Of a stretch of DNA of 41,494 nt, positions 15,132 through 40,998 are shown one piece after another; the stretch's first letter is position 1, and each line of letters starts with the position of its first letter. The notes under the pieces were generated by a model that was not told the origin of the DNA, ran no database searches, and saw only the letters and a list, made by a program, of their open reading frames with translations. The translations under genes were made by a program, and so were the position numbers. Origin of the DNA: Anaerolineales bacterium (GTDB taxonomy: Bacteria > Chloroflexota > Anaerolineae > Anaerolineales > Villigracilaceae); contig JAEURH010000022.1 in the NCBI GenBank assembly GCA_016789365.1, forward strand, positions 1-41,494. Reading direction: 5' to 3'.

Positions 15132-16283
15132 TTATGCCTCAGCCTGATGCGTTTTCTTTTGGCGGTTGCGGTAAACATCACGCGCAATATTATATAAACC
15201 TTTAAATAGCGGTCCTTCCACAATGCGTGTGTAAGATGGATAATCCCAAAATGATTTTTTAGGCGCGGTTAAAATTGCTTCAAACGATTCATCGGTAAAC
15301 CCTAATTTTTTAACAACATATTCGCGGTCTTCTTCTTGCATGGTAGGTGAATAGGTTGGTTTTTCTAATTCTTGCAATGCTATTTCTCTTGTAATTTCAC
15401 CTGAACAAATTAAACTAGAGAGATGGCAACGCCGTTTATCGTACCCAAACTTGGTTGGCAAAATATAACCTTGATAAAAACGGGTATAAATTGATTCGTA
15501 ATGTTTGCCACCATAATAACGCCAGCCTAGTTCTTGTTCTAAAATTTTCATGGCTTCGGCTTTGTTGTAATGTAGATAATTCAAAATGTCCACGCGGCGA
15601 TGTGTGAGTAAGCGACGGTAATAGGTGAAGAACCCAATATGTGGGTAGGTTTTGAGGCGCGTTTTTCCAAATTGTTTTTGAATGCTTTGAATGTATTTCC
15701 AATCAAAATGACCTTGTGACCAAGCGCGCGGTAAATGTGATTCGGTGCGGACATTGAATCCAGAAATAATATATTTCACTTTCAGTTTATCTGCCATGTT
15801 GCCAAGCACTGCCCAAATGGCATGGTCGCTTGGAATTTCAGAATCAGGGGTGGAGGCTTTAAGAAAAGATGATTGTAAATCTCTAAATTCTTCCCAATCT
15901 AGCACTTCTGTATAAAGGTCAATATTGAGGCGTTTGAGGGTTTCTTCAATATTTTTTACGGCGAGTTCAGAGTCCCAGCCGTTATCCATGTGAATGGCTA
16001 ACGGACGTAGACCCATTTTTTTTACAAGATACGCAACATAAGTACTATCTACGCCACCGCTTACGCCAATAATACAATCATAAGGTTTGTTGCGTCCATT
16101 GCGTTTCATTTCGTCCACAATCTTTTGTAAATATTTTTCTCCCGCCGCACCTGTGATTACTTTTTGAGTCATCATGCGGTCATAATCATGACAATGATTA
16201 CATACACCTTGTTCATCAAATTGAATATTAGGGTCGCTGGTATCCATCAAACAGCGCGTACAAATTTTATAGTCTGAAGTCAT
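15132..16283 (-). CDS. wbpG: N-acetyl sugar amidotransferase (WbpG/PseA type)
   Basis: 383 residues. The N-terminal zinc-type cysteines are CTRC (Cys8, Cys11) and CNHC (Cys28, Cys31). An ATP pyrophosphatase loop SGGVDS lies at 75-80, and the family-typical MDNGWDSELAV follows. Known: WbpG and PseA adenylate the acetamido group of a nucleotide sugar and use ammonia from HisH2/HisF2 to form an acetamidino group, as in Pseudomonas B-band O-antigen and Campylobacter flagellar sugars. Here hisF2 and hisH2 lie directly upstream in the same operon, completing the module. The sugar substrate is not known. Mis-annotation as a tRNA thiolase is excluded by the cysteine pattern and neighbours. Confidence 0.92.
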   Translation of the reverse strand: MTSDYKICTRCLMDTSDPNIQFDEQGVCNHCHDYDRMMTQKVITGAAGEKYLQKIVDEMKRNGRNKPYDCIIGVSGGVDSTYVAYLVKKMGLRPLAIHMDNGWDSELAVKNIEETLKRLNIDLYTEVLDWEEFRDLQSSFLKASTPDSEIPSDHAIWAVLGNMADKLKVKYIISGFNVRTESHLPRAWSQGHFDWKYIQSIQKQFGKTRLKTYPHIGFFTYYRRLLTHRRVDILNYLHYNKAEAMKILEQELGWRYYGGKHYESIYTRFYQGYILPTKFGYDKRRCHLSSLICSGEITREIALQELEKPTYSPTMQEEDREYVVKKLGFTDESFEAILTAPKKSFWDYPSYTRIVEGPLFKGLYNIARDVYRNRQKKTHQAEA

Positions 16284-16298
16284 GCCTTCTCCAATATG

Positions 16299-17057
16299 TT
16301 ATGGGATTGCTTTTCGTAATTCTTCTTGTGTAGGGTAACTGATTAATACGCCTCGTAGCGGACCTTGGAATACAAACATGCTCCCCGCTGAAGCCGCAGA
16401 AGCACCCGCTTGTATCGCTTCAGATAAATGTTGAATATTACCCGCACCACCACAAGCGACGAGCGGAATGTTGATTACGTCTGACATACGTTTAATCAAA
16501 GTCAAATCATAGCCTTGCATTGTGCCGTCATGGTCTATGGAATTGATAAAGATTTCCCCAGCACCTTGTTTTTCCATTTCAACTGCAAAGTTCACGGGGT
16601 CAAGTTTGGTATTTTTTTTGCCGCTTTGAATATAGGTTTCATATTTTCCAAATAAAGATTTTTTTATATCAATTGAGATAACAACGGCTTGGCTACCTGC
16701 ATAATTTGCGGCTTCCCGAATGAGAGATGGGTTTTGCACAGCGGTTGTGTTTAACACAATTTTTTCAACGCCAATTTTGAGGAGTTGTTTAATATCATCC
16801 ATATCGCGAATGCCACCGCCATAGCCTAAAGGCATAAAACATTCGCTAGTAATTTTTTCAAGCAATGTGAAGTTAGGTCTTCGATTTTCATTCGTGGCTG
16901 TAATATCTAAAAAAATTAATTCATCCACTTCTTTGTCATTAAAAATTCTGACAATGTTGATGGGGTCGCCTAGATATTTTGGGTCTTTGAATTTAACCGT
17001 TTTGACCAAGCCTTCATTTTTCAATAACAAACATGGGATTACGCGCGGGCGAATCAT
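16299..17057 (-). CDS. hisF2: HisF2: imidazole glycerol phosphate synthase cyclase-like subunit of a sugar amidotransferase
   Basis: 252 residues of HisF (beta/alpha)8 barrel. The start MIRPRVIPCLL has Leu11 where histidine-pathway HisF has the catalytic Asp11, while the second Asp (in VISIDIKK) is kept. The phosphate-binding motifs VACGGAGN and GSMFVF are present. Loss of Asp11 is typical of the HisF2 branch that only channels ammonia to WbpG/PseA. It starts immediately after the HisH2 stop and precedes the amidotransferase gene by 15 bases. It is therefore very unlikely to act in histidine synthesis. Confidence 0.9.
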   Translation of the reverse strand: MIRPRVIPCLLLKNEGLVKTVKFKDPKYLGDPINIVRIFNDKEVDELIFLDITATNENRRPNFTLLEKITSECFMPLGYGGGIRDMDDIKQLLKIGVEKIVLNTTAVQNPSLIREAANYAGSQAVVISIDIKKSLFGKYETYIQSGKKNTKLDPVNFAVEMEKQGAGEIFINSIDHDGTMQGYDLTLIKRMSDVINIPLVACGGAGNIQHLSEAIQAGASAASAGSMFVFQGPLRGVLISYPTQEELRKAIP

Positions 17058-17675
17058 TTATTTACCCTCCGCAAAATTTCTCAAAAATTGCATTCCAAAT
17101 TTATGGCTCTTTTCAGGGTGAAATTGCGCCCCGATAATATTTTCTTTTTGAATCACCGAAGCAAAATTGTAACCATAATCTGTATAAGCAACTACATCCG
17201 ATTCGTTTTTGCAAACAACATGATAAGTATGCACAAAATAAAAACGCGAGTCTGTTTCTAAGCCTGAAACAATTGCATGTTGGCGTTGAACATCAATCCC
17301 ATTCCAACCCATGTGTGGAATTTTTAGATACGATTGGTCAGACTCAAATTTGAATCTGATACTTTCCGCTTCGACCCACCCCAAGCCTGTTTCTGTTCCT
17401 TCTTCACTTTTTTTTGTCATCAACTGCATTCCCAAACAATGCCCTAACACTGGCATTTTTTTCTCTAGCACGAGTTCGTTCAGCAAATTGATTAAGCCGC
17501 GTTCGCGCAGTTTACTCATGCCTGCGTCAAACGCGCCAACGCCAGGCAAAATTAATTTTTCCGCTTGGCGTAACACCTCAGGGTTAGAGGATGGCTCGGC
17601 TTTGTAGCCAATTTTCTTAAACATATTTTTGATGGAACCGAGATTGCCAACTCCATAATCTACAATGACTATCAT
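17058..17675 (-). CDS. hisH2: HisH2: glutamine amidotransferase subunit
   Basis: 205 residues, class I glutamine amidotransferase. The nucleophile is Cys80 in GHCLGMQL, the catalytic pair is His186/Glu188 in QFHPEKSH, and the HisH-type oxyanion loop is PGVGAFD (44-50). It hydrolyses glutamine and passes ammonia to the HisF2 barrel. It overlaps the AsnB-like gene by ATGA and abuts hisF2, so supply of the two subunits is coupled. Position and partner identity argue for the sugar-amidation role. Confidence 0.92.
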   Translation of the reverse strand: MIVIVDYGVGNLGSIKNMFKKIGYKAEPSSNPEVLRQAEKLILPGVGAFDAGMSKLRERGLINLLNELVLEKKMPVLGHCLGMQLMTKKSEEGTETGLGWVEAESIRFKFESDQSYLKIPHMGWNGIDVQRQHAIVSGLETDSRFYFVHTYHVVCKNESDVVAYTDYGYNFASVIQKENIIGAQFHPEKSHKFGMQFLRNFAEGK

Positions 17676-26464: not shown

Positions 26465-28444
26465 CTATACTGCTTTCATATTGAATACATCTTTTTTATC
26501 AAGCCAATTATAAAGTCTAGAACTGGCTTTCCCATCTAAAGGGGTGCATAATGTTTGAAGGTCCTTCTTCCATTGCGCTTTTTTCTGTGTAAAAATATCG
26601 CTTTGGGTAATACATTCGTTTATTGCTTTTTGAAGTTCAGATTGATTGGTATAAAGAAACGCACTCTCTTCAACATCTTGTATGCGACCAAAATCATAGC
26701 GGCGAGTAGGTTTGTATGAGATAGGCATACAGCCAGACGCGATTGCCTCAATGCCTACCGATGATGTGCCTGTGACCATAAAGTCTGAAGCGAGCAATAA
26801 TTCATGCAAATCGCTTTCGACAATTTGATAATTATTAAAAGAATGGAATCGGGAGGCATTGTGTAATTCATTATGTAAGACTGCCCAATAATGAAAGCGG
26901 ACTAAAAAATATATATGTGGATATTGTTTCGCAATGGAAAACGCCCAGTTCATTATCATCAACGCTTCTTCTTTGAGGCTAGGTAATGCTAAAAGTACAA
27001 GAACCAAATCTCCGTTAAGATTGAAGCGGTTTTTTATCTTTTCTTTTGCAATGCCACGCTCCATTTGCGAATCGATTTTCAAATAGGGGTATCGAATCGG
27101 TCCAGTTAATTGCACTCGCTCGCTTCCCAATTTTTTCGTTAGCAGATGATAAGTGGTTTCGCCATACGTGGCGACATAATTTGGCAGAGGCGCAAATGGT
27201 GGAAGCAATTGATTTGTTTGACTAATTTGTTCTGGCAAAAAATAATATCCAAGGTGACTTTTGCCAAGCAGAGAAGTTTGCAAGCCAATGAGTTTTACGT
27301 TTGGGTTTGTTGTTTTTACGCCTGCGGCAAAGGCTTTTTCGATAGGCTGAAATTCAAATGCAAAAATTGCTGAAGAAATATTTTTTATTTTTCGGCTGGC
27401 ATAAGCGATAATGAACGGTTGAAGTAAATCTGGATTCCATTGTTCATGTTGCAATTCTCGAAGCAATAGTTTTTTTACATCAATAGAATCAATTCGTACA
27501 TCTAAAGAAGATACGTTCTTAATTTTGTCAGCAAGACGCTTGCCCCAGCCAACGCGAAAACAGATTGCGAATAATTCGAGCAGGGGAATTAAAGCATGTG
27601 AAAATAAAATACGATTTTCATCGGTAACCTTTTGCCAATGTTTTATTTCTTTTATAAGGCTACTTGGTTTCATGGTGGGAATAGCCAGATAAGTTAGGGC
27701 TTTGTTATGTTTGTTTAATTCAGACGGAAAATCTCCAAAGGCGAGGTTTTCTAACTTGCCTGCATTATTTTTTGACCATAACGTAGGGAAAATGGTTAAG
27801 CCAAGTATTTCACTGACGTTTGATTTTTCTTTCCCAATGTTAAATAAATGAAACATAAGCCAATAAGACAATGCAGTGAGACACGCCTTCCACCATGTTG
27901 TTAATAGCGAAAGTTTGTTTTGATAATAGGTATGTTTATTATTTTTTATTCTTTTTACTTCAATAAACTTTACGTTGCGGTTTTGGCAAATTTCGCGCAC
28001 AGGCGTTTCAAGCAATTCATCATCGGTGACAAATAAAATTTTTTGATAATGTTTTTTTTGCAAAACTTCTCGTAATACAAATAGCGCGTATAACTTATCA
28101 ATCAACGGGGTTCGTAAAATACTCATTTCAGAAATGGGCATCAGCCAATATAAACTGATTTGTTTATCTAAAGCCGTAACATTTAATAAATCCGAATCTT
28201 TTGCGATGTTATATAAAAAACGCGGATAGAGTTCACGAATCTGCTCGCTCACTTTGTCTGAAATTTCTTTTATGTTTAGCAACACGCCATCTACATCGTC
28301 TTTTGGCGGTATGGATTCGCCAAGTGATAAGAGATTCACAACCCGCCCTTGCGATGTAGCGGTTTGGATATATGCGCTTCGCTCCCACGCTTGGGCTTGG
28401 TCAAACACTTCGACAATTAACTCGGCTTCAACTTTTTCTGTCAT
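26465..28444 (-). CDS. Large unrecognised GT-B-like protein (surface carbohydrate biosynthesis candidate)
   Basis: 659 residues, mostly soluble, with one hydrophobic stretch near 190-205. The C-terminal half looks like a GT-B donor domain: GLQTSLLGKSHLGYYFLP, then VQLTGPIRYPYLK, and a late SDFMVTGTSSVGIEAIASG with Ser561 and Glu566, a pattern found in capsule, Kdo and glycerophosphate-type transferases. The N-terminal half has no clear family. It recalls the large proteins called surface carbohydrate biosynthesis protein in Leptospira O-antigen loci, but I cannot confirm this. It overlaps the HAD phosphatase gene by ATGA, so the two are made together. It may transfer the product of the CMP-activation module. 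Confidence 0.65.
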   Translation of the reverse strand: MTEKVEAELIVEVFDQAQAWERSAYIQTATSQGRVVNLLSLGESIPPKDDVDGVLLNIKEISDKVSEQIRELYPRFLYNIAKDSDLLNVTALDKQISLYWLMPISEMSILRTPLIDKLYALFVLREVLQKKHYQKILFVTDDELLETPVREICQNRNVKFIEVKRIKNNKHTYYQNKLSLLTTWWKACLTALSYWLMFHLFNIGKEKSNVSEILGLTIFPTLWSKNNAGKLENLAFGDFPSELNKHNKALTYLAIPTMKPSSLIKEIKHWQKVTDENRILFSHALIPLLELFAICFRVGWGKRLADKIKNVSSLDVRIDSIDVKKLLLRELQHEQWNPDLLQPFIIAYASRKIKNISSAIFAFEFQPIEKAFAAGVKTTNPNVKLIGLQTSLLGKSHLGYYFLPEQISQTNQLLPPFAPLPNYVATYGETTYHLLTKKLGSERVQLTGPIRYPYLKIDSQMERGIAKEKIKNRFNLNGDLVLVLLALPSLKEEALMIMNWAFSIAKQYPHIYFLVRFHYWAVLHNELHNASRFHSFNNYQIVESDLHELLLASDFMVTGTSSVGIEAIASGCMPISYKPTRRYDFGRIQDVEESAFLYTNQSELQKAINECITQSDIFTQKKAQWKKDLQTLCTPLDGKASSRLYNWLDKKDVFNMKAV

Positions 28445-29079
28445 TTTGAAAATAAAGCGCTTTCTAATTCTTGAAAACTGCGGATAATAGTTACGTCCTT
28501 AGAAAAGCCACCATTGCCTTGTAAAACATACCCATAAAAAGGCGAGTTTGTTTCTAACGCGGCTTTGTAATCATTAATCGCATCGCCTATAAAAGGCATT
28601 TCTTTTGTTTTGATATTATGGCGTTCTACAATATCTCGGATAATTTCGGGCTTGCTTCGCGGCGTGCCATGTATTTCTTTGAAATAATTTGTTAAGCCAC
28701 GTTTTGCTGTGATAGTTTTTAACTCATCTTGCGGGGTGCCAGAAGCAATAAATAAAGGAATTTGTTTTGAGTATTTTTGTAAAAATTCTAATGCGCCGGG
28801 CATATATTCGCATTCAATCACTTTTTGCATTACCAATTTGGAAAATCTTTCGCCAAGTTCTTGTGAAAACTCTTTGGTAAGTGGTTTTTTCAAAATATCG
28901 CGGTATATAATTTCAAACTTAACAAAACGAGACATGCCTCCGTTTGCTAAATGAAAATTGAGAATGGTTTGCAGATGTTCTTTTTCGTTTGAAAAAAGTT
29001 CACGAAAGGCTTCAGTTTTGACATTTACAGAATCAACAATAACACCGTCAAAGTCAAATAGGATGGCTTTGATGGTCAT
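28441..29079 (-). CDS. HAD-superfamily phosphatase
   Basis: 212 residues. Motif I is DFDGV (Asp9, Asp11), motif II Ser in IASGTPQDE, a Lys in RSKPEI, and motif IV FIGDAINDYKAA. The cap is the helical insertion of beta-phosphoglucomutase-like (subfamily I) HADs. It overlaps genes on both sides (ATGA each), between an SDR and the 659-aa protein. Inference: it removes a phosphate from a sugar or sugar-acid phosphate intermediate before activation. A mutase role is also possible for this subfamily. Confidence 0.85.
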   Translation of the reverse strand: MTIKAILFDFDGVIVDSVNVKTEAFRELFSNEKEHLQTILNFHLANGGMSRFVKFEIIYRDILKKPLTKEFSQELGERFSKLVMQKVIECEYMPGALEFLQKYSKQIPLFIASGTPQDELKTITAKRGLTNYFKEIHGTPRSKPEIIRDIVERHNIKTKEMPFIGDAINDYKAALETNSPFYGYVLQGNGGFSKDVTIIRSFQELESALFSK

Positions 29080-29966
29080 TCTTTTTTACTCTGACCTGAT
29101 TGATAAATTTCATCTAAACAATCTAACAAGCCTTGTCCCATATCTACATAATAGTTATTGACAAGTTTCTTGCCAATTTTCGGGTGAAAGGTATAAGGCG
29201 TCAGGCTGTAATGACCCGTTGTCCCTGAGTCAAGAGGCGGTTGTAAATCTAGTTGTACGTCTGCGCCAACCATTTCTCGAATCATTTGCATCAAATCACG
29301 AAAACGCATCGGGTGATTGCCCGTCAGGATGACGTTTTGGTTTTCAAACTCTTCAGCCAAAATTTGCACGCTAGCACGCGAAGCATCTTCTACGTGAATG
29401 TATTCGCGCATTTCATCGCCTGTGGCATGGACAGAAATTCTTCTTTCGGTTAATGCTTGTTTGAGATAACGATACACACTGTTGCGCGAATCGGCGCGGC
29501 GACCATATAACGTGCCATATCGCAAGATGGTGTAATTCAAACCAAAGCGGCGTTGATATTCTTCAATGTAAGATTCGCACGCTTGTTTACTCACACGATA
29601 AAACCCGCCCGCTTCAGAATAGACATAAATGGTGGAGGCAAATACAAAACGTTTTATGTTTACATGGCGGGCGGCTTCTAGCAAATTGACACAACCCAAA
29701 ACATTCAAACGAACTGTATCAACTGGGCGGGCAAGTGCGTCATCTAAATCGGCTAAACCAGCAAAGTTATAAATAACATCTTGATTCGCAATGGCTTTTG
29801 TGATGGCATCCACATCAAGAATATCGCCTTGGATAAATTTTTGACTCGCTTGTAAATAAGGCGAAGGCTTCATATCAAAAATAGTCACTTCATGCCCTGC
29901 GTTTGTAAGCGCATCGGCTAAGTGTGAGCCAACAAAACCTGAACCGCCAAATACGATAATTTTCAT
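29076..29966 (-). CDS. NAD(P)-dependent epimerase/reductase (extended SDR)
   Basis: 296 residues. Rossmann motif GGSGFVG (7-13); active-site strand FASTIYVYSE; the catalytic Tyr-x3-Lys is YRVSK. The segment between strand and Tyr is short (EAGGF), unlike most sugar epimerases, which have 20 or more residues there. Its start overlaps the stop of the cytidylyltransferase/dehydrogenase fusion and its stop overlaps the HAD gene start, so the three products belong to one coupled set. Substrate unknown. Confidence 0.82.
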   Translation of the reverse strand: MKIIVFGGSGFVGSHLADALTNAGHEVTIFDMKPSPYLQASQKFIQGDILDVDAITKAIANQDVIYNFAGLADLDDALARPVDTVRLNVLGCVNLLEAARHVNIKRFVFASTIYVYSEAGGFYRVSKQACESYIEEYQRRFGLNYTILRYGTLYGRRADSRNSVYRYLKQALTERRISVHATGDEMREYIHVEDASRASVQILAEEFENQNVILTGNHPMRFRDLMQMIREMVGADVQLDLQPPLDSGTTGHYSLTPYTFHPKIGKKLVNNYYVDMGQGLLDCLDEIYQSGQSKKE

Positions 29967-31735
29967 ACATTATTTCCTAAAGCGGCGATTTGATATTCAC
30001 TCTCTGGCACAATACTTTTGAGTGTTTCACCTTTCAAAAAACGCACGGCTTCTTCGGTGGCTTCAATTTCCATGCGTGAGCGGCAATCGGCAGACATAGA
30101 ACCCATGTGGCAAGTAAGCAAACAATTTTCAAGGGTACCTAATTCACCGGCGTAAGGTTCGCGTTCAAATACATCAATTGCCGCACCAGCAATGCGTTGA
30201 GAGCGTAATGCTTGGGCAAGGTCTTTTTCATTAATCATATTACCGCGTGATGTATTTACTAATAAAACATCTTGCTTCATTAAGTTAATTTCATTGGCTG
30301 TGATTAACGCGCGCGTGAGTGGCGTTAAAGGAAGATGTAAAGAGATAATATCTGCAGAACGATATATTTCCTCTTTTTCAACCCATTCAATATTATGTAA
30401 TTTTCCAAATTCAATATCGGGGTTTAAGTCATTGGCAAGAATTCGCACAGATGGAAACCCGCCACGCAAGTGTTTTATAACTAATTTACCAACTCGTCCT
30501 ACACCAATTAAACCGACTGTCGTTTCAGAAAGTCTGCGCCCCATAAAACGATGCCAAACGCCATTCCGCATATTTCTATCCGAAAGTGAAATGCCTCGTA
30601 GTAATGCCAACATTTGACCAACTGCTAATTCAGCTACAGCAGGCGATGGCGCATCTGGTGTATAAGTCACTTGCACGCCACGTTCACGCGCCGCAATTAA
30701 ATTGACGCTATCCAAGCCAATGCCAACACGGGCGATCAAGCCGAGGCGCGGCGCAGAGGCGATAACTTTTTCAGTAATCGGCTCGGTGCCAGCAATCAAA
30801 ATTCCAAAATCAGGAATCATTTCAATCAATTCTTCTTCTTTGAGTCTTCTGCCAATTGGATTAATCATATATTCGATTTGATTCGACTCCAATAAATCGA
30901 GCGGATACCGTTCCGCTTCACCAAACGGGACAGTTGTTATCAGCACCCGATGCTTTACCTCGCCTGAGGCTTTGACTCGCATGGGCGAAAGAATTTCAAT
31001 TTTCTTTTCGGCTTTTACATCATACGGTGTTTGTGATTCGGTAAACCCGCGCCGTTTGAGCCATTCTTCCACCATCGGAATTTGCCATGGATAATCTACA
31101 TCGCCATAACCTTCATGTACTAAGGCGGCTACTTTTTGTTTAGCAACATCTACAATGGTATTGGATATTGTTTGTTGAAAATTTTTGAAAAATTTTTCTG
31201 GGCGAAGTACAAATAAAAGCGAATCAGGAAAGTATGCATCTGTTTTCGATGTTTCAGCAACGCCGCTATATTCTTGCAGTAAACCGTTTTGCGTTAATTG
31301 CAACGCCAAATGCGGATGATATTCATTATGTTTTGAAACAGAAATGACTGCATCTAATTCTGGTTGTGAACGTAGAATTTCAACGCCTTGATTGATTAAT
31401 TTATCTGTCACAGTGGGGGCATTGGCAATCATTACTACTAATGCTTCAATCGGTTCGTTGAATCGTTTTTTTATTTCTTCATAACCATTTTGAATCACTT
31501 GTTCAAGCGTAAAGGCTTCATCGTTGTTTTTTCTTTCAATGACTTGTGCGCCAGTATGCTTTGCAACACGCGCCATACCAGCATCATCGGTGCTGAGATA
31601 AACCTTATTTACCTGAGCAGAGTTTAACGCCGCCAAAATTGGGTAAACCATTAATGGTCTACCTAATAATGGAAATGTATTTCTACCGGGGAAAGGCTGA
31701 TTTTCCGCCCGCCCGCAGATAAGAGCGACTATCAT
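29963..31735 (-). CDS. Fusion: NeuA/KdsB-like cytidylyltransferase + D-2-hydroxyacid dehydrogenase
   Basis: 590 residues in one frame. I use ATG 31735, which aligns with the start of the paralogue at 34109; a TTG four codons upstream is the alternative. Domain 1 (1-241) is a CMP-sugar-acid cytidylyltransferase fold: CGRAENQPFPGRN at 7-19 and a metal-type Asp212-Val-Asp214. Its nucleotide loop is changed, with Glu-Asn-Gln-Pro where GSxG is expected and Arg18 for the usual Lys, so activity is uncertain. Domain 2 (262-590) is a complete 2-hydroxyacid dehydrogenase: GxGxxG at 411-416 and catalytic Arg497, Glu526 and His543 in SRG, EREP and CHMG. Inference: it activates and reduces (or oxidises) an acid in one polypeptide, like the Bcs1 and TarI/TarJ pairs for CDP-ribitol but from different families. 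Confidence 0.88.
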   Translation of the reverse strand: MIVALICGRAENQPFPGRNTFPLLGRPLMVYPILAALNSAQVNKVYLSTDDAGMARVAKHTGAQVIERKNNDEAFTLEQVIQNGYEEIKKRFNEPIEALVVMIANAPTVTDKLINQGVEILRSQPELDAVISVSKHNEYHPHLALQLTQNGLLQEYSGVAETSKTDAYFPDSLLFVLRPEKFFKNFQQTISNTIVDVAKQKVAALVHEGYGDVDYPWQIPMVEEWLKRRGFTESQTPYDVKAEKKIEILSPMRVKASGEVKHRVLITTVPFGEAERYPLDLLESNQIEYMINPIGRRLKEEELIEMIPDFGILIAGTEPITEKVIASAPRLGLIARVGIGLDSVNLIAARERGVQVTYTPDAPSPAVAELAVGQMLALLRGISLSDRNMRNGVWHRFMGRRLSETTVGLIGVGRVGKLVIKHLRGGFPSVRILANDLNPDIEFGKLHNIEWVEKEEIYRSADIISLHLPLTPLTRALITANEINLMKQDVLLVNTSRGNMINEKDLAQALRSQRIAGAAIDVFEREPYAGELGTLENCLLTCHMGSMSADCRSRMEIEATEEAVRFLKGETLKSIVPESEYQIAALGNNV

Positions 31736-31736
31736 T

Positions 31737-32606
31737 TTATTGTTCAAGGCTCCAGTTTAAATCTTTTTCATATCCAACATCAATTAGATGTTGTCCACAT
31801 TTTTCTTTGAAATATTGAACGTGACGTTCGCTAAAGTGATTACGCCAATCACCAACTATCCCTTTACGGGCTGTGCTTTTATTTTGCCTTTTTTGAAAAT
31901 TTTGTTTTAAGTCAAACTTTGTTTGACTAGCAATTTTTTGTACAATTTGCTCAACTTGCTCGTTAGAAAGTTGAATTCCATAAAAACTTAATACACCAGC
32001 AAGGGTGCCACTTGGGTCTGCCCTTAATGTTTCATATCTGACTTCGTAAAAACGGTTAGGCTGTTTTTTTATCTGGCTTAGCCAATTTTCAATCCAACTC
32101 AGGTAGTATTCAAGAGAAATTTCAAGGTTATGTGTCATCCCTTCTTCTTTAGACAAAGTATTGTACAAGGCATAATGACGATGTGTTGGATCATTTAATG
32201 CATGAAAATAACGAGAGACACATTGGTCGCGTAAATCACGGTACATAATAATAGGGTTTATATTAAATTTATCCAAAACTTGCATATTCTCAGGTGAGTA
32301 ATGTGTATGTAACTTCATAATGTAATGTCCGTTTTTAGGAATATATGAAAAAATATCATTACAAATATTATGAAGTGAACTACATTCATCTGGGTCATAA
32401 ACATAAGCAGGTTGATAACCAGGGACTTCTTGCATTAATTGCGCCAGCCATGTTGTGCCAGATTTAGGTAAACCAGCAATAAAAATAAGATTAGGATATC
32501 CAATATAAGTGGCTTTTGATAAAAAAAGATTTCTTAATTGCAATATACTAAGGCGATAAAATAGTGAAAGAGATTTTAATGGTTTCTTGATAAACATTTT
32601 ATTCAC
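31737..32606 (-). CDS. PAPS-dependent sulfotransferase
   Basis: Up to 289 residues. The 5'-phosphosulfate loop is PKSGTTW (47-53). The 3'-phosphate site YRDLRDQCVSRY has Arg123 and Ser131, and the nucleotide loop RKGIVGDW lies at 247-254. All three Sulfotransfer_1 elements are intact. Known: these enzymes move sulfate from PAPS to a hydroxyl or amine of a glycan. The start is uncertain: GTG at 32606 overlaps the preceding TGA (GTGA) but is only 3 bases from a GGAGG site, while ATG at 32597 is 12 bases from it. It lies between two nucleotide-activation genes, so the glycan is probably sulfated. Confidence 0.9.
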   Translation of the reverse strand: MNKMFIKKPLKSLSLFYRLSILQLRNLFLSKATYIGYPNLIFIAGLPKSGTTWLAQLMQEVPGYQPAYVYDPDECSSLHNICNDIFSYIPKNGHYIMKLHTHYSPENMQVLDKFNINPIIMYRDLRDQCVSRYFHALNDPTHRHYALYNTLSKEEGMTHNLEISLEYYLSWIENWLSQIKKQPNRFYEVRYETLRADPSGTLAGVLSFYGIQLSNEQVEQIVQKIASQTKFDLKQNFQKRQNKSTARKGIVGDWRNHFSERHVQYFKEKCGQHLIDVGYEKDLNWSLEQ

Positions 32607-33358
32607 TCACCTCCGCTCACCGCAATCGTTTGGCCTGTCATATAAGTATGCGAAAGCAGAAAGCAAATCGTCGCAGCCACCTCTTCGGGAGTTGCGCTTC
32701 TTTTTAAGGGGATTAATTTTTTTCTCGTTTCAATTTCTTCTTTCGTTTTATCTTGCCAAAAGGCGGTATCCGTCATACCTGCTCGCACAGTATTCACTAA
32801 AATATTAAATTCTGCGCCCATCTTTGCCATTCCTACCGTTAAAGTTTCTAATGCCGATTTTGCCATAGCGTAATGAATGGTTTTCGCAGAACCTCCATAC
32901 TTAACGCCTATAGAACTGACATTTACTATTTTTCCGCCACCTTGAGATTGCATCACTGTAAACGCTTGTTGAGATAAAAAGAATGGCGCTTCAATATTTA
33001 AGGCAAAGGTTTCATCCAATTCGGTTTTTAGAATATTGGGAAAAGCATTCTTCCCTTGGGGCGCGCCAGCATTGTTGACTAAGCCATCTAAGCCACCAAA
33101 TTTTTTAATAAATGCAGGTATCAAAGCGTCTCTTTCTTGAGCATTGCTTAAGTTTGCTTGAAAAATTTCGGCAACTCCACCAGATGATTGAATTTCTTCT
33201 TTTATAGTTTGTGCTTCTTTTAGGCGTTGATGATAATGAATCCCAATAATTGCACCCGCTTCACTTAACAAGCGGACAGTTGCTTCGCCAATGCCAGAAC
33301 TTGCTCCTGTAACGAGGATTCTTTTTCCTTGCAAATCGTACTTGATATTATTTTGCAT
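32603..33358 (-). CDS. Classical short-chain dehydrogenase/reductase (FabG-like)
   Basis: About 251 residues from ATG 33358; another ATG at 33385 would add nine residues. TGxxxGxG is complete (TGASSGIG, 17-24), NNAG at 95-98, and catalytic Ser149, Tyr163 and Lys167 (YAMAK). A C-terminal MTGQTIAVSGG closes the family pattern. It overlaps the end of the second cytidylyltransferase gene by 11 bases. Inference: it reduces a keto group of the compound that the cytidylyltransferase activates. A fatty-acid role is unlikely in this context. Confidence 0.88.
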   Translation of the reverse strand: MQNNIKYDLQGKRILVTGASSGIGEATVRLLSEAGAIIGIHYHQRLKEAQTIKEEIQSSGGVAEIFQANLSNAQERDALIPAFIKKFGGLDGLVNNAGAPQGKNAFPNILKTELDETFALNIEAPFFLSQQAFTVMQSQGGGKIVNVSSIGVKYGGSAKTIHYAMAKSALETLTVGMAKMGAEFNILVNTVRAGMTDTAFWQDKTKEEIETRKKLIPLKRSATPEEVAATICFLLSHTYMTGQTIAVSGGE

Positions 33359-34109
33359 AAGGGGTTTGTGTTTCTGAAAAGCCATGTTTCTTTAACCAGA
33401 ATTCCACTTGTGGAATTTGCCATTCATAATCTACATCTAAACCACCCCATTGATGAATAGGCAAAATGTTTTGCCCCATCCATTTTTGAGGTAATAAGCC
33501 TGCATGTAAATTTTCTAAACAATGTGGGCGAACAATGGAGGTGCTCATATCTGCAAAATAGACATCGCCTTGTGAGTCGCGGTCACAATTCAAAGTAGCA
33601 GGGTCGCCAAATACTTCAAATGGTACGAAAGGATGAAGATAGCCATCTTCGCCTAATTTACGGGCGCGAAGCGGACTCCACATGTTGTAAATAGAAACTG
33701 TCACAGCAGAATCAGCCTTCGGGTCAGCACGAAGCGCAGAAATTCCTTGCTCCAATAAATCTGCATTAATCGTTGCGGCGTTTGCAAAGAGCAAAATCAT
33801 TAATTCAATTTTTTTGCCTTCTTTGGCAAGTTCATCTTTTATCACTTGATAGCCATGCACATAAGCATCCTCGCCGAGGGCTTGCTTGGTTGCCAAATGA
33901 GGCGGGCGGTCAATAATCTGTGCGCCATATTGTGTCGTCACCTCTTTAATACGTGGCGAATCTGTAGAAACATAAACACGGTCAACCGATGGTGCATTGA
34001 GCGCCGCCATTAATGGATAAGACATTAATGGGCGACCAAAAATTGGATATAAATTTTTACCGGGGAAGCCAACGCTTCCCTCACGGCCTAACAATAAAGC
34101 AGTTATCAT
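33348..34109 (-). CDS. NeuA/KdsB-like cytidylyltransferase (stand-alone paralogue)
   Basis: 253 residues. The nucleotide loop LLGREGSVGFPGKN (6-19) keeps the Arg, GSxG and Lys of CMP-sialate/Kdo synthetases, and Asp225-Val-Asp227 matches the metal-binding pair near the C-terminus. It shares its start (M-I-x-A-L), PIFGRPLMSYPL and C-terminal GFSETQTPY with domain 1 of the fusion protein, so the two are paralogues. In both, a WQIP motif follows the Asp pair in place of the usual acidic residues. No NeuB or KdsA homologue lies in the window to supply a 2-keto sugar acid. It overlaps the methyltransferase gene (ATGA). Confidence 0.88.
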   Translation of the reverse strand: MITALLLGREGSVGFPGKNLYPIFGRPLMSYPLMAALNAPSVDRVYVSTDSPRIKEVTTQYGAQIIDRPPHLATKQALGEDAYVHGYQVIKDELAKEGKKIELMILLFANAATINADLLEQGISALRADPKADSAVTVSIYNMWSPLRARKLGEDGYLHPFVPFEVFGDPATLNCDRDSQGDVYFADMSTSIVRPHCLENLHAGLLPQKWMGQNILPIHQWGGLDVDYEWQIPQVEFWLKKHGFSETQTPYAK

Positions 34110-34993
34110 TTTTTAAACTCCATTACAGCAAACAAAGTATCACATTTCCATTGTTTTTTTAATGCCTCTGCGTAAGCAATTTCAAGTTCGGGGGTGAATA
34201 TTTCTTTGAAACGCCCTGCCCCACCTGGTTTGCCTTCCATCATCCAAACCATGTGATTGGATAAATCATAGCGTTGGGCAGGAATCATTTGCACATCATA
34301 CCCTGCACGTATTAATACATCTTTTAAAGTTTTATGCGAGAAATTATAGTAATGTGCTTTTTGCCAATAAAATGGGGCAAAGTTTGGAATGTCGTATGGG
34401 CTTAACAATATATCATCCACATTAGGAACTTCAAGCAAAATTCTGCCGTTTGGTTTTAACCAATTTGATAATGAACTCATATATCCAATTGGGTCGCGTA
34501 AATGCTCAAGTACATAGTATAAAAACAAAACATCAAACTTTTTTTCTGAAAGTTCCTCTAACGAGTTATAGGTTTTTATACCAATGCTATTTGCATAATC
34601 ACGATAGGCTTGGCTGGGTTCCAGACCAGTTACAGAATTCACATAACCGCGCAAATCGTCTAAGAAATAACCTGTAGAACTGCCAATTTCTAAAACATCA
34701 TCTTCTGGTTTTAAGAATGGACGCACCAAAGGAAGCCTGCGCTCACCTTCGGGTTGATAGGAACGAAAATGTGATTGTGGGCTTTTCCAACTTGCGCCAG
34801 AACGTCCTGCCATATATTTTTCAAATTCAGCGCGATAAAAGTCGGCTTCTTCTTTTTCATTCATAATTGGAAAAAGATATACAATGTCACATTGACGACA
34901 TTTATATTGCTTTGATTCTGGCGCATCGGCAACTGTTTCGCCGATTAATTCTGCATCTGCTGAACCGCATAATCTACATATTGGTTTACTCAT
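34106..34993 (-). CDS. Zinc-knuckle class I SAM methyltransferase
   Basis: 295 residues from ATG 34993, chosen because GGAAG is 4 bases upstream and the ATG overlaps the preceding TGA; a longer TTG reading exists. CRLC (Cys6, Cys9) and CRQC (Cys32, Cys35) form a zinc-ribbon. Motif I VLEIGSSTGYF lies at 100-110, and YVLEHLRDPIGYMSSLSNWLKPNGRILLEVPN is the typical Methyltransf_23 block. This architecture occurs in sugar C-methyltransferases and in O-antigen loci. It is coupled on both sides, to an SDR and to a cytidylyltransferase. Confidence 0.87.
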   Translation of the reverse strand: MSKPICRLCGSADAELIGETVADAPESKQYKCRQCDIVYLFPIMNEKEEADFYRAEFEKYMAGRSGASWKSPQSHFRSYQPEGERRLPLVRPFLKPEDDVLEIGSSTGYFLDDLRGYVNSVTGLEPSQAYRDYANSIGIKTYNSLEELSEKKFDVLFLYYVLEHLRDPIGYMSSLSNWLKPNGRILLEVPNVDDILLSPYDIPNFAPFYWQKAHYYNFSHKTLKDVLIRAGYDVQMIPAQRYDLSNHMVWMMEGKPGGAGRFKEIFTPELEIAYAEALKKQWKCDTLFAVMEFKK

Positions 34994-35922
34994 ACAACTT
35001 CCTTTTTTGCCCAAGCAACCATTTTGCTTAAGCCGTCATATAAATTCATTTTTGGTTTCCAATTCAAATCTTTTTCAGCTAGCGAAATATTTGCTGTTAA
35101 GCCAAATTGGTCAAAGGCAGAGCCTTGTAATTCTTTAATTGGATGGTTGGTGTCAAGTTTCATTACATCTATCAAAGTTTTCAATAATTCTCGCACCGTG
35201 GTTGCTTTGCCTGTGCCGAGGTTATAAATTGATGATGGCGTTTGTTTTATTTGTAAAGCATTCATCCAAGCATCTACTATATCGTCAATATAAATAAAAT
35301 CTCTAAATCTTTCAAGCGAGCCAGTCACAGGCACTTCTTCGCCACGCAATAAATATGCCATAAAAATACTTGCCATACCTTGTTTTAAGTTGCCTAAATT
35401 TTGACCAGGTCCATACACGCTAAACATGCGAAATGAAGTGACGTTCAAACCTTCTAATGAAGTTAAGCGTAACAAATGTTCAGAAGCCAATTTTGATACG
35501 CCATAATAAGCAATCGGTTCGCAAATCGCATCTTCTGAAACGGGTGAGGCATGTTTATTTCCATATACAGTCATTGAGCTGGCATATAAAAATCTTGAAA
35601 CATTATTTTCTAAACACCAACGCGATAATAACAAAGTAGAAGCAGCGTTTACTTGCAAATCATAATATGGCATTTCAATGGAAGCGGGTCCTGATGATTG
35701 TGCGGCGAGATGACAAACCGCATCAAACTTTCCTGATGGAAGATGTTCAAGGCAATCTGCTTTTGCTAAATCATATTCGACAAATTCCGCTTCTTTCGGG
35801 ATGTTTGCCTGTTTGCCCGTAGATAAATTATCTATCACCGAAACATGATGCCCTTCGGCAATCAGGCGATGTGCTAAAGCAGAACCGATAAAGCCCGCGC
35901 CGCCAGTAATTAAGACTCTCAT
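34990..35922 (-). CDS. NAD-dependent nucleotide-sugar epimerase/dehydratase (extended SDR)
   Basis: 310 residues. GGAGFIG at 7-13, DNLSTG at 31-36 as in UDP-glucose 4-epimerases, active-site strand ASSMTVYG (Ser115/Ser116), and Tyr140/Lys144 in YGVSK. The overall pattern is closest to UDP-hexose 4-epimerases such as GalE or WbpP. There is no dehydratase acidic pair. Overlaps at both ends (ATGA) tie it to the Gfo/Idh/MocA dehydrogenase and the methyltransferase, which suggests consecutive steps on one sugar. Confidence 0.85.
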   Translation of the reverse strand: MRVLITGGAGFIGSALAHRLIAEGHHVSVIDNLSTGKQANIPKEAEFVEYDLAKADCLEHLPSGKFDAVCHLAAQSSGPASIEMPYYDLQVNAASTLLLSRWCLENNVSRFLYASSMTVYGNKHASPVSEDAICEPIAYYGVSKLASEHLLRLTSLEGLNVTSFRMFSVYGPGQNLGNLKQGMASIFMAYLLRGEEVPVTGSLERFRDFIYIDDIVDAWMNALQIKQTPSSIYNLGTGKATTVRELLKTLIDVMKLDTNHPIKELQGSAFDQFGLTANISLAEKDLNWKPKMNLYDGLSKMVAWAKKEVV

Positions 35923-37001
35923 TCCGCCTCTGTGATGTATAACTTAGCAAGTTTTTCATCAGGCTTGCCAAGTTTATTTGAAGCAACACCTTCATCTAAA
36001 AATACTTCGCGGTTATCTTCTGCAGAACGGTATAAGGCGTTAAGCAAACGTATCGCACGCGTACCCTCTTCAAACGAGACAGGATGCGGTTTTTTATCTT
36101 GTAAATCAGCAACTACATCGCGGAAAAAATTCCAGTGACCAAATCCATAGGCATCTGGAAAATCTTCTGAGTAATTATTTGCATGTTGAGGGTCAAGCGT
36201 GTATGTGCTTAATTGATTTGAGGCGATGCCCGTCAGAATGGCTGTGCCTTTTTCTGCTAAAACAGAAATTGACGCTTCGAAATCATCGGGGCGGGCGGCG
36301 GTGGTGACTTCGATAACGCCTAATGCGCCGTTTTTGAATTTCAACGTTGCCACAAATGTATCTTCTACTTCAACATCCACAAGTTGAGTAGCGGCGCGCG
36401 CAGTAACGGATTCAATATCACCAAGCATATATTGAAGCAAATCAATATAATGAATGCCCTGATTGGTTAATGCACCACCATCCATTGCCCAAGTACCACG
36501 CCATGCATCGCGGTTGTAATATGTTTGCGGGCGGCACCAACGTAAACGCACTGTTCCCAATACAGGTTTACCTAATGCGCCTGTAAGTAAATCATCACGT
36601 ACTTTTTGTACGGCTTTGTTATATCGGTTTTGATAGACAGGAAATATTTTTACGCCATTTGCCTCAGCAGTAGATTTCATTTTTGCTAAATCATCCCAAG
36701 CCAATGCCATTGGTTTTTCAACGACAACATGTTTTTTGTAACGTTTAATAACATCTATAGTATGTTGAGGATGGATTCCGCTAGGGGTGAGAATACAAAC
36801 CACGTCTATATTTTCTTTCTTTAACATGATGTGGTAGTTTGTATAGGCAAGCACATTATATTTTTGAGCATAGCCTTCGGCGCGTTCTGGAATCAAATCA
36901 CATACGGCTACAAGTTTCGCACCTTGAATTTCTGTTAAGGGTCCAAGATGGTTTTTGGCAATCCGTCCGCAACCAATGAGGGCAAATCGAAGTTCTTTCA
37001 T
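35919..37001 (-). CDS. Gfo/Idh/MocA family sugar dehydrogenase
   Basis: 360 residues. The N-terminal NAD(P) fold has IGCGRIAKNH (9-18). The signature EKPMA holds the catalytic Lys96, and DGGALTNQGIHYID supplies the conserved Asn180/His184 pair of the C-terminal domain. In polysaccharide loci such enzymes oxidise C3 of a UDP-HexNAcA (WbpB, WlbA) or reduce keto sugars. No adjacent aminotransferase or oxidase is present to confirm the 3-amino route. It follows the acyltransferase with no gap and overlaps the SDR by ATGA. Confidence 0.87.
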   Translation of the reverse strand: MKELRFALIGCGRIAKNHLGPLTEIQGAKLVAVCDLIPERAEGYAQKYNVLAYTNYHIMLKKENIDVVCILTPSGIHPQHTIDVIKRYKKHVVVEKPMALAWDDLAKMKSTAEANGVKIFPVYQNRYNKAVQKVRDDLLTGALGKPVLGTVRLRWCRPQTYYNRDAWRGTWAMDGGALTNQGIHYIDLLQYMLGDIESVTARAATQLVDVEVEDTFVATLKFKNGALGVIEVTTAARPDDFEASISVLAEKGTAILTGIASNQLSTYTLDPQHANNYSEDFPDAYGFGHWNFFRDVVADLQDKKPHPVSFEEGTRAIRLLNALYRSAEDNREVFLDEGVASNKLGKPDEKLAKLYITEAE

Positions 37002-39180: not shown

Positions 39181-40998
39181 TTACTCAATCCTCAAAATTT
39201 GTGCAGAGGTGGTTTTTATTTTTTGAGGGCTAGCTGGTAACAAATATTTGTTTGCGAAACTATCATCACGTTTAATCGGTAAGCGCCCTTCTAAACAATC
39301 TGTAATGCCTTGTTTCATTTCTGAAAGCGTATTATAAAAATGAACGCGCTTGGATAAGAGTTGATATGCCGTTGGGTTGAACGGTAATAATGGATTCGTG
39401 AGTGATAAAATCTCTGCATCAGTTTTCAAACATTCAAATAATGGCGAAGATGGAAATTCACTAAGAATGACACGTGTAGGATATTCTTTTAAGACATCAA
39501 CAAGCGAAGGTCCCTCTAAAACTTTTATATTTTTTAAGCCACGCAATAATTCAATAAAAGCACTGTTGGTATAGTCGTACGCTGGAAAAGGTTTTACAAC
39601 CACACGCAAACTAGAGCATTGATTCAAAAACTTAAGCAATTCACGCTGGTATTGAGCTAATTCATGTAACAAAGGGCGCGGACCTTCTCTATAAAATGAA
39701 GCCGCATTGGAGATAGGGAAAAGAATATCTATTTTTACACGCTTAGAAAACCGATGTGAATTAACTGTTACTTTTTCACCTGCTGGTATGATTTCACAAC
39801 GGGGTTGTAAATCAGGTGAAGTTTCTAACAAATCTTCTTTTGTAAAACCGTAACTTAAATAATGCGTACTCCACCAAAAATCTGAATCAAAATGTCTGGG
39901 TGGGCTTACTTCAATTCCATAATTGCCACCATGTTGACGGCCAATAACAGGCACTCCACATTTCAATAGATATTCAACTAAGAAAGATAGCCCATTCATT
40001 GCCACAGGTGGGCGAATCCATATTCCGCCAAGTATTTTTTCTTTGCTTGCAAGATTATGTAAATTCTTAACGGGAAGAATATAAGTGAAATAGTTACGGC
40101 AAAAATCATCCAAAATGATAGCTCTTAAGACAGCGGTAATTTCAATCTCATTTTTTGATAGGATTTTTTTAACCGCTTCTTGACTCGCTTCTTGCAGTCT
40201 CTGCGGCGGGAGCATTTTCTGCGCTGACAAGTTTTCTTGCAAAGAAATACTCTCTGACGGCAAATCTTTATGAGGTATTAATTCGGCTGAATATGAACCA
40301 TTTATTAAGACTAGCAAGCCACGAGCATTCTCGAGCCACAAAACTAGTGGAGCATCTTGAAAGTCATTCTTCTTAACAACAATGTTGTATAGTTTGCTAA
40401 ATCCGCTTCGGATACCATTTGCAAAAATTTTGTTCCACTTTTGCCGCCTGCTAATTTTTTTGCTTTGTGCCAAAACCTTTTGTGAAATTGGAGAAGTGCT
40501 TTTTTCAACTGCAAGTGGTGTGTGGCTTAAAATCAACTCCATAATATTAATTGTGGTCTGAAAAAACGAAGGGGCATTTTGAATGCCGTGTGGCATAAAC
40601 AAGATTGCTTTCTGCGGAGAAAACTTGCTTACTAAATGTTGAAATGCAATGATGGATTTTGATATATTCACATATTCAAGTTTGAGACGATAGCGATATA
40701 ACGTGTAAAAGAATTGAAGCGACGGGGTGATTTGTAATTGTTGATTCAACTCATCAGCAAATAAAGAGTCAAGGTGGTTCAATAAATCATCTGTTTTGGG
40801 TGGCGCTTCTTTATAGAGTTTGATTAAATCTGTTATGGTCAAAAAAGAGGATAGAGGCGTGCAAAATAAACCATGAGCCTCTAAGTAATCATCCACTGCG
40901 GCATGGGTAGAGATTAAAGTCATGCTATCAAATTGTGCGCGATGTTGAACTACATAATCGGCATCATGCACGTCGTTCAAAATTGCAATTGTTTTCAT
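39181..40998 (-). CDS. Large unrecognised GT-B-like protein (putative surface-glycan transferase)
   Basis: 605 residues, soluble. The first strand-loop is MKTIAILNDVHDADYV. The central part has GGIWIRPPVAMNG followed by GRQHGGNYGIEVSPP, a His-Gly signature like those in capsule-type transferases. Near the C-terminus LSEFPSSPLFECLK places Ser517 and Glu522 as in GT-B donor sites and in the same relative place as in the 659-aa protein of this operon. It may belong to the LIC12162-like putative transferases of Leptospira, but that is memory of the family, not a search. It ends 1-2 bases before the wzx ATG. Confidence 0.62.
   Translation of the reverse strand: MKTIAILNDVHDADYVVQHRAQFDSMTLISTHAAVDDYLEAHGLFCTPLSSFLTITDLIKLYKEAPPKTDDLLNHLDSLFADELNQQLQITPSLQFFYTLYRYRLKLEYVNISKSIIAFQHLVSKFSPQKAILFMPHGIQNAPSFFQTTINIMELILSHTPLAVEKSTSPISQKVLAQSKKISRRQKWNKIFANGIRSGFSKLYNIVVKKNDFQDAPLVLWLENARGLLVLINGSYSAELIPHKDLPSESISLQENLSAQKMLPPQRLQEASQEAVKKILSKNEIEITAVLRAIILDDFCRNYFTYILPVKNLHNLASKEKILGGIWIRPPVAMNGLSFLVEYLLKCGVPVIGRQHGGNYGIEVSPPRHFDSDFWWSTHYLSYGFTKEDLLETSPDLQPRCEIIPAGEKVTVNSHRFSKRVKIDILFPISNAASFYREGPRPLLHELAQYQRELLKFLNQCSSLRVVVKPFPAYDYTNSAFIELLRGLKNIKVLEGPSLVDVLKEYPTRVILSEFPSSPLFECLKTDAEILSLTNPLLPFNPTAYQLLSKRVHFYNTLSEMKQGITDCLEGRLPIKRDDSFANKYLLPASPQKIKTTSAQILRIE

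Follow-up and report, generated by a model that had tools for sequence, protein, structure and literature searches.

To our knowledge, the cytidine monophosphate (CMP)-activated acids described so far come from phosphoenolpyruvate (PEP)-dependent synthases (NeuB, KdsA). The present analysis concerns a gene of an Anaerolineales bacterium that joins a CTP_transf_3-like cytidylyltransferase domain to a D-2-hydroxyacid dehydrogenase in one protein of 590 residues. The gene lies at 29963..31735 on the minus strand of a 41,494-nucleotide stretch (contig JAEURH010000022.1, assembly GCA_016789365.1), the whole of which is referred to here as the window. It represents the form taken in one lineage by a wider module, the genes of which are usually separate. 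This module is widespread and apparently uncharacterised, and its probable product is an unusual acidic sugar of cell surfaces.

Both halves of the protein can be compared with described enzymes. NmNeuA is a dimer with an active site built from residues of both subunits; the residues important for the nucleotide are Arg12 and Lys21 (E. coli enzyme), those binding metal are Asp209 and Asp211, and Gln104 contacts the sugar (PMC2901514, excerpt). The fused domain shares with NeuA and KdsB the fold family, the loop Arg and the metal Asp pair, but differs in the loop Ser and Lys, in most acceptor-half positions and at the counterpart of Gln104. Against NCBIfam equivalogs it scored 71.6 bits with PseF (cut-off 205.7) and fell far below cut-off with the KdsB models. 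The second half carries both Pfam domains, the GxGxxG motif and the Arg/Glu/His residues of the D-3-phosphoglycerate dehydrogenase and 2-ketoaldonate reductase type, but reached only 211.6 bits with the 3-phosphoglycerate dehydrogenase equivalog TIGR01327 (cut-off 454).

Fusions of a cytidylyltransferase to oxidoreductases of other families exist, a point overlooked in an earlier note on this DNA. In Vibrio, an SpsF-like domain and an aldo-keto reductase share one surface-sugar protein of predicted role, but the oxidoreductase is of another family and the cluster is of the NeuB/Pse-type nonulosonic acid kind (PMC7371886, excerpt). Cytidylyl activation is likewise combined with NAD(P)H redox and an extended short-chain dehydrogenase (SDR; PF01370) partner in the synthesis of CDP-6-glucitol and CDP-mannitol (HS5.18/HS5.17, Mnp1/Mnp2), but there a PF01128 transferase acts on a sugar phosphate and the excerpted source gives no 2-hydroxyacid dehydrogenase (PMC10918830). 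The window fusion had no match to PF01128 (IspD/TarI type) at E 0.001. PntC, FrbH and Fom1 also contain a cytidylyltransferase domain fused to a pathway enzyme, but these belong to PF12804 or PF01467 and are tied to PEP mutase (PMC6697681, excerpt). Neither a cytidylyltransferase/2-hydroxyacid dehydrogenase pairing nor a named pathway for the gene set was found among the matches listed from the open-licence PMC literature, in agreement with the earlier note, which could name no pathway.

The two-domain fusion is genuine. It comprises 590 codons in a single frame with no internal stops, starting at ATG 31735 (TTG 31747 is a possible alternative, giving a 594-residue form). Scores exceeded the curated Pfam cut-offs for CTP_transf_3 (PF02348; 40.4 versus 22.6 bits, residues 8-140 of the TTG form), 2-Hacid_dh (82.9 versus 24.6 bits) and 2-Hacid_dh_C (161.1 versus 25.1 bits). 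These families occur in one protein in five genomes: three in the window's genus, another Chloroflexi metagenome-assembled genome (MAG) and one Deltaproteobacteria MAG. Given that an intact copy, 75% identical to that of the window, is present in the complete one-contig genome G005 of the same genus (locus L017), the fusion is not an assembly error. A frameshift or assembly artefact is ruled out by this copy and by intact orthologues in L025 (genome G501; 95% identity), L026 (65%) and L089 (the Deltaproteobacteria MAG; 43%). The continuous frame of a NeuA/KdsB-like and a PGDH-like domain described in the earlier note is thus unbroken by stops or frameshifts in related genomes. Both halves are under purifying selection, with ratios of nonsynonymous to synonymous substitution (dN/dS) of 0.057 (N half) and 0.079 (C half) between the window and L025, dS being saturated against more distant copies.

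Full-length fusions were found in 2/400 genomes sampled from the phylum and 2/400 from the order (three candidates scored per genome), in 3/152 genomes of the family by a search with the N domain (all in frames of 597-607 residues) and in 1/297 genomes from the phylum of the Deltaproteobacteria MAG, in sampling sets that overlap and in which diverged copies may be missed. Such rarity in the phylum, order and family is what a chance or neutral joining of neighbours, devoid of functional meaning, would give. That account is nevertheless very unlikely, as the fusion persists over 43-95% identity with both halves constrained, and the partner genes are clustered in many phyla. A viral origin was rejected: a scan of IMG/VR gave no relative, and none of the 27 phage records matching the fusion query spanned more than 80% of it, only the dehydrogenase half being matched among the 15 listed.

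The wider module was defined by a GTDB scan with the cytidylyltransferase (CTP) subfamily, using two peptide patterns that covered the metal Asp pair or the nucleotide loop. The 70 loci obtained span Chloroflexota, Omnitrophota, Nitrospirota, Elusimicrobiota, Bacillota, Cyanobacteriota, Planctomycetota, Pseudomonadota, methanogenic archaea and others. An anchor above 300 bits was present in 68, some of them near kin (e.g. L045/L086), and the other 2 were left out. Among the 43 anchored loci of at least 15 kb, an extended SDR (EPI) was present in 35, the dehydrogenase (>300 bits) in 26, a HAD-family gene in 21, the module SDR in 17 and all four in 11; across all 68 loci the individual counts were 45, 35, 30 and 23. 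Clustering of 953 open reading frames (ORFs) from 65 loci, after removal of near-duplicates, placed the anchor in 61 loci, EPI in 42, the dehydrogenase in 29, HAD in 26 and SDR in 24. In an earlier clustering the anchor family had been broken up into small groups; the repeat with other settings returned the same partner counts at the same edge threshold. By contrast, control NeuB loci L121-L124 of genomes G000 and G005 (46 kb in total, 9-14 kb each, two genomes) contained no EPI, dehydrogenase or HAD gene at the same thresholds.

Gene order in the window is CMPA-SDR-sulfotransferase-[CTP-dehydrogenase]-EPI-HAD-glycosyltransferase, where CMPA denotes a stand-alone cytidylyltransferase. Compact unfused counterparts include L040 (CTP-SDR-dehydrogenase-EPI-HAD-glycosyltransferase), L047 of Methanolobus (CTP-SDR-dehydrogenase-EPI-methyltransferase-HAD) and genome G232, in which dehydrogenase, EPI, CTP and HAD are four separate genes. 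The module is present in many phyla, and two of its parts are combined in the fused protein. This bears out the proposal of the earlier note that keto- or hydroxy-acid redox chemistry is paired with CMP activation, as genes for both cluster in many unrelated genomes.

The explanation toward which these data lean, by a little more than an even judgement, is that the fusion is part of a conserved gene module for surface glycans, which would produce a CMP-activated 2-keto (ulosonic-type) sugar acid independently of NeuB and KdsA, with the fused domain most likely serving in docking. The module part of this explanation is held with good confidence. An oxidising direction for the dehydrogenase step stands near even, and docking in place of catalysis by the fused cytidylyltransferase domain is judged about equally balanced. 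The carbon skeleton would be a pre-formed sugar acid or, where the gene is present, the product of an HpcH/HpaI pyruvate-type aldolase. The dehydrogenase would set the oxidation state of C2, most likely yielding a 2-oxo acid whose ring-form hydroxyl could take CMP. Phosphate would be removed by the HAD enzyme and the chain tailored by EPI and SDR. The stand-alone cytidylyltransferase would make the CMP donor, pulling the unfavourable oxidation forward, and a TIGR04326-like transferase would consume it. A second cytidylyltransferase copy, diverged in sequence, would in the lineage of the window have become fused to the dehydrogenase, and would most likely act as a partner subunit that docks it to the active synthetase; failing that, it would activate a different acid. 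The reasons for favouring either role are the rewired acceptor half and the intact copy that accompanies each of the five fusions.

The fusion marks two steps that are likely coupled. A bolder and rather doubtful extension is a third route, beyond NeuB and KdsA, to CMP-2-ulosonic acids in bacteria and archaea, using a dedicated dehydrogenase and often a pyruvate-type aldolase, with a pseudo-cytidylyltransferase docking the dehydrogenase onto the CMP-synthetase and so coupling oxidation to trapping. A conserved set independent of NeuB and KdsA would imply a class of acidic surface sugar so far unrecognised, in many phyla, many of them uncultured and archaea included, and the module provides a five-gene operon that is compact and testable. 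Precedent for a hexulosonic acid is given by the 4-deoxy-2-hexulosonic acid of the E. coli K3 capsule, named in a title cited by PMC10433991; the K3 genes could not be tied to the module.

A route to CMP-ulosonates independent of NeuB and KdsA is suggested by G232 and by operons combining an aldolase with a KdsB-family gene. G232 is 99% complete and has a single CTP_transf_3 (PF02348) gene, which lies inside the module. One gene accounts for both its single NeuB match (36.7 bits, above the Pfam cut-off of 22.1) and its KdsA match (131 bits, cut-off 314). By curated cut-off this gene is a DAHP synthase (TIGR01361 405.9 versus 267.75; NeuB equivalog 26.8 versus 399.65), which leaves the genome with neither NeuB nor KdsA. 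The HpcH/HpaI family catalyses the formation of 2-keto acids from pyruvate or their cleavage, and the substrate that KdsB activates is a 3-deoxy-2-ulosonic acid. An HpcH/HpaI aldolase gene is nearby in eight loci other than the window. L142 and L146 have the operon aldolase-CTP-dehydrogenase-EPI-HAD, with CTP genes above the kdsB equivalog cut-off (166.3 and 156.5 versus 155.2 bits), and an Acuticoccus plasmid encodes these five functions in the order aldolase-CTP-dehydrogenase-HAD-EPI. The aldolase is also near in G676, G691, G884, L020 and L021. In the last two (L020:4929-12579 and L021:2595-9591), genes for a cytidylyltransferase, aldolase, dehydrogenase, GmhA-like protein, SDR, dehydroquinate-synthase-like protein and Gfo/Idh protein form what we take to resemble a carbasugar or cyclitol route. 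As an independent view, among 19 loci anchored on an unfused dehydrogenase (1.5 kb flanks), EPI was found in 9, the aldolase in 7 and one or both in 13, counting an EPI of L132 cut by the locus end (262 bits) and leaving outside the 19 four matches from the order-genome sampling that were given no locus.

A stand-alone cytidylyltransferase accompanies the fusion in each of the five loci. In the window, where the fused domain is an additional copy, this is CMPA (33348..34109, minus strand; PF02348 59.5 bits), an intact paralogue two genes upstream of the fusion that the earlier note overlooked. It retains the metal Asp pair and, when aligned with NmNeuA, the counterparts of Arg12, Ser15, Lys21 and Asn22; CMP activation need therefore not be performed by the fused domain. 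The latter (residues 1-240; 31016..31735, minus strand, as are the features within it) is a diverged CTP_transf_3 domain on a long branch beside the stand-alone clade, and is followed by a variable linker of about 18 residues (30962..31015). Its nucleotide loop GRAENQPFPGRN (residues 8-19; 31679..31714) keeps Arg9 and Asn19, with Ser12 replaced by Asn and Lys18 by Arg. The Asp212-Val-Asp214 motif (31094..31102) aligns with the metal-binding Asp pair of PMC2901514 (excerpt). The residues E11-N12-Q13-P14 and R18 are placed as in the earlier note, as are G411-x-G-x-x-G416, R497, E526 and H543 of the second domain.

The Asp pair is retained in 5/5 fusions and the loop pattern is common to the four Chloroflexota fusions, the loop of L089 being more degraded. 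Stand-alone relatives have Ser, Lys, Asn and both Asp in 70/70 cases and Arg in 69/70, figures partly built in by the search patterns for the Asp pair and Asn19; Ser12 lay outside the patterns, and Lys or Arg was permitted at 18. Nineteen stand-alone enzymes share 73 invariant positions, of which the four Chloroflexota fusions retain 32 (nucleotide region 7/10, middle 10/17, acceptor half 8/38, C-terminal region 7/8), and L089 retains 25 (nucleotide region 1/10). The counterpart of Gln104/Gln98, which contacts sugar and metal, is Ile or Leu in the fusions and Gln in 1/70 stand-alone relatives. This site was located by alignment with NmNeuA and by the LQPTSP motif. In a tree for which 26 of the 64 stand-alone enzymes were sampled, with near-duplicates, short loci and kin left out, the fused domains cluster together on long branches (90/65, not firm).

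In view of the altered loop and acceptor half, and of the intact copy found in each of the five loci, the fused domain is probably rewired or a non-catalytic partner, in keeping with the doubt expressed in the earlier note. It is possible, if less probable, that both fused domains are catalytic on one substrate, the cytidylyltransferase domain activating the product of the attached dehydrogenase and CMPA activating another acid. The dN/dS of 0.057, by which the domain is constrained, and the retention of Arg9, Asn19 and the Asp pair in the Chloroflexota fusions would suit this arrangement. The pairing is also a natural one, because adjacent unfused CTP-dehydrogenase genes are found in L016, L094 (4-nt overlap) and L101; in L016 (9998-11593, a Gemmobacter plasmid) they lie back to back in the same frame with one stop codon between. 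By contrast, the replacement of Ser12 and Lys18, the loss of most acceptor-half invariants and the state of the L089 nucleotide region argue against it.

The second domain (29966..30961, minus strand) is a complete D-2-hydroxyacid dehydrogenase with 1wwk as its best PDB match. In a tree from which near-duplicates, short loci and kin were left out, module dehydrogenases are separate from the genome's other three (94/90; these score 255-272 bits against the threshold of 300) and appear as a clade of their own tied to surface-glycan loci. The four Chloroflexota fusions group together (89/79), as do all five with the unfused L085 (96/90). On these groupings, there may have been one origin and a loss, or two origins.

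Several observations weigh against the module explanation as set out above. D-2-hydroxyacid dehydrogenases usually run toward the hydroxy acid. No module-type aldolase is present in the window, and the loci fetched from its own genome gave a single partial aldolase match of 55 bits; the HpcH/HpaI genes in this genome lack close kinship with the module aldolase. EPI, dehydrogenase, HAD and SDR are all absent at the thresholds used from 11/68 anchored loci (many short; 3/43 long ones). Radical SAM/SPASM families, found in 25 and 18 of 65 loci, if merged occur in 43/65 and so exceed the dehydrogenase count, which indicates that the chemistry surrounding the stand-alone enzyme is variable; B12 radical SAM genes occur in 20/65. 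Finally, NeuB scores above 200 bits in 17/19 module genomes and lies 16 kb from the G005 fusion. On the window contig there is no NeuB gene, and elsewhere in the same genome NeuB is present. Service to a NeuB product is thus possible in the window's organism, and in an ordinary nonulosonic acid pathway NeuB would make a Leg/Pse-type sugar, CMPA would activate it and the dehydrogenase would make a hydroxyacyl substituent. A likely sugar-amidation set in the window (15132-17675: PseA-like amidotransferase, for which Pfam gave weak PP-loop matches only, with HisF-like and HisH-like genes) would fit such a pathway. It is nonetheless considered unlikely: each of the strong NeuB genes in G000 (2) and G005 (3) is accompanied by a different CTP_transf_3 gene at a distance of about 1-4 kb, the module is found in G232 although that genome lacks both NeuB and KdsA, and the Gln104 site is seldom Gln in the stand-alone enzymes.

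HisC-like pyridoxal phosphate (PLP) enzymes form a family present in 25/65 loci. One member, in a Nitrospirae MAG (L039:7347-9251, plus strand), is a HisC/CobD-like enzyme fused to the same cytidylyltransferase subfamily. Such a fusion might recall cytidylyl activation of a phosphonate or phospho-acid as by PntC, FrbH or PhpF, CMP-tethered small acids and fused cytidylyltransferases being common in phosphonate clusters (PMC6697681, excerpt). This alternative is most improbable. The enzymes named there are of PF12804 and PF01467, not PF02348, and PEP mutase was over cut-off in 0/19 module genomes (sub-cut-off in 5), although 14 control genomes also gave 0 and so provided no positive control.

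The fusion's neighbours between 26465 and 37001 are all on the minus strand. The fusion gene is part of a tight operon, since the upstream sulfotransferase-like gene (31737..32606) ends one base before its ATG and EPI (29076..29966), the commonest module partner after the anchor, overlaps its end by 4 nt. The sulfotransferase-like gene is not module core, as its G005 counterpart was matched only as two fragments in different frames (L017:12372-12651). The SDR (32603..33385) and the HAD-family phosphatase-like gene (28441..29079), both assigned by Pfam, are recurrent neighbours in other loci. A putative glycosyltransferase at 26465..28444, sub-cut-off for TIGR04326 and BFO_1060-like, is a possible user of the CMP donor. 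Another putative glycosyltransferase of the window, of 605 residues (39181-40998), had no Pfam match at E 0.001. Beside CMPA, accessory genes for a methyltransferase, an epimerase and a Gfo/Idh/MocA oxidoreductase (34106..37001; Pfam) have similar counterparts in several loci.

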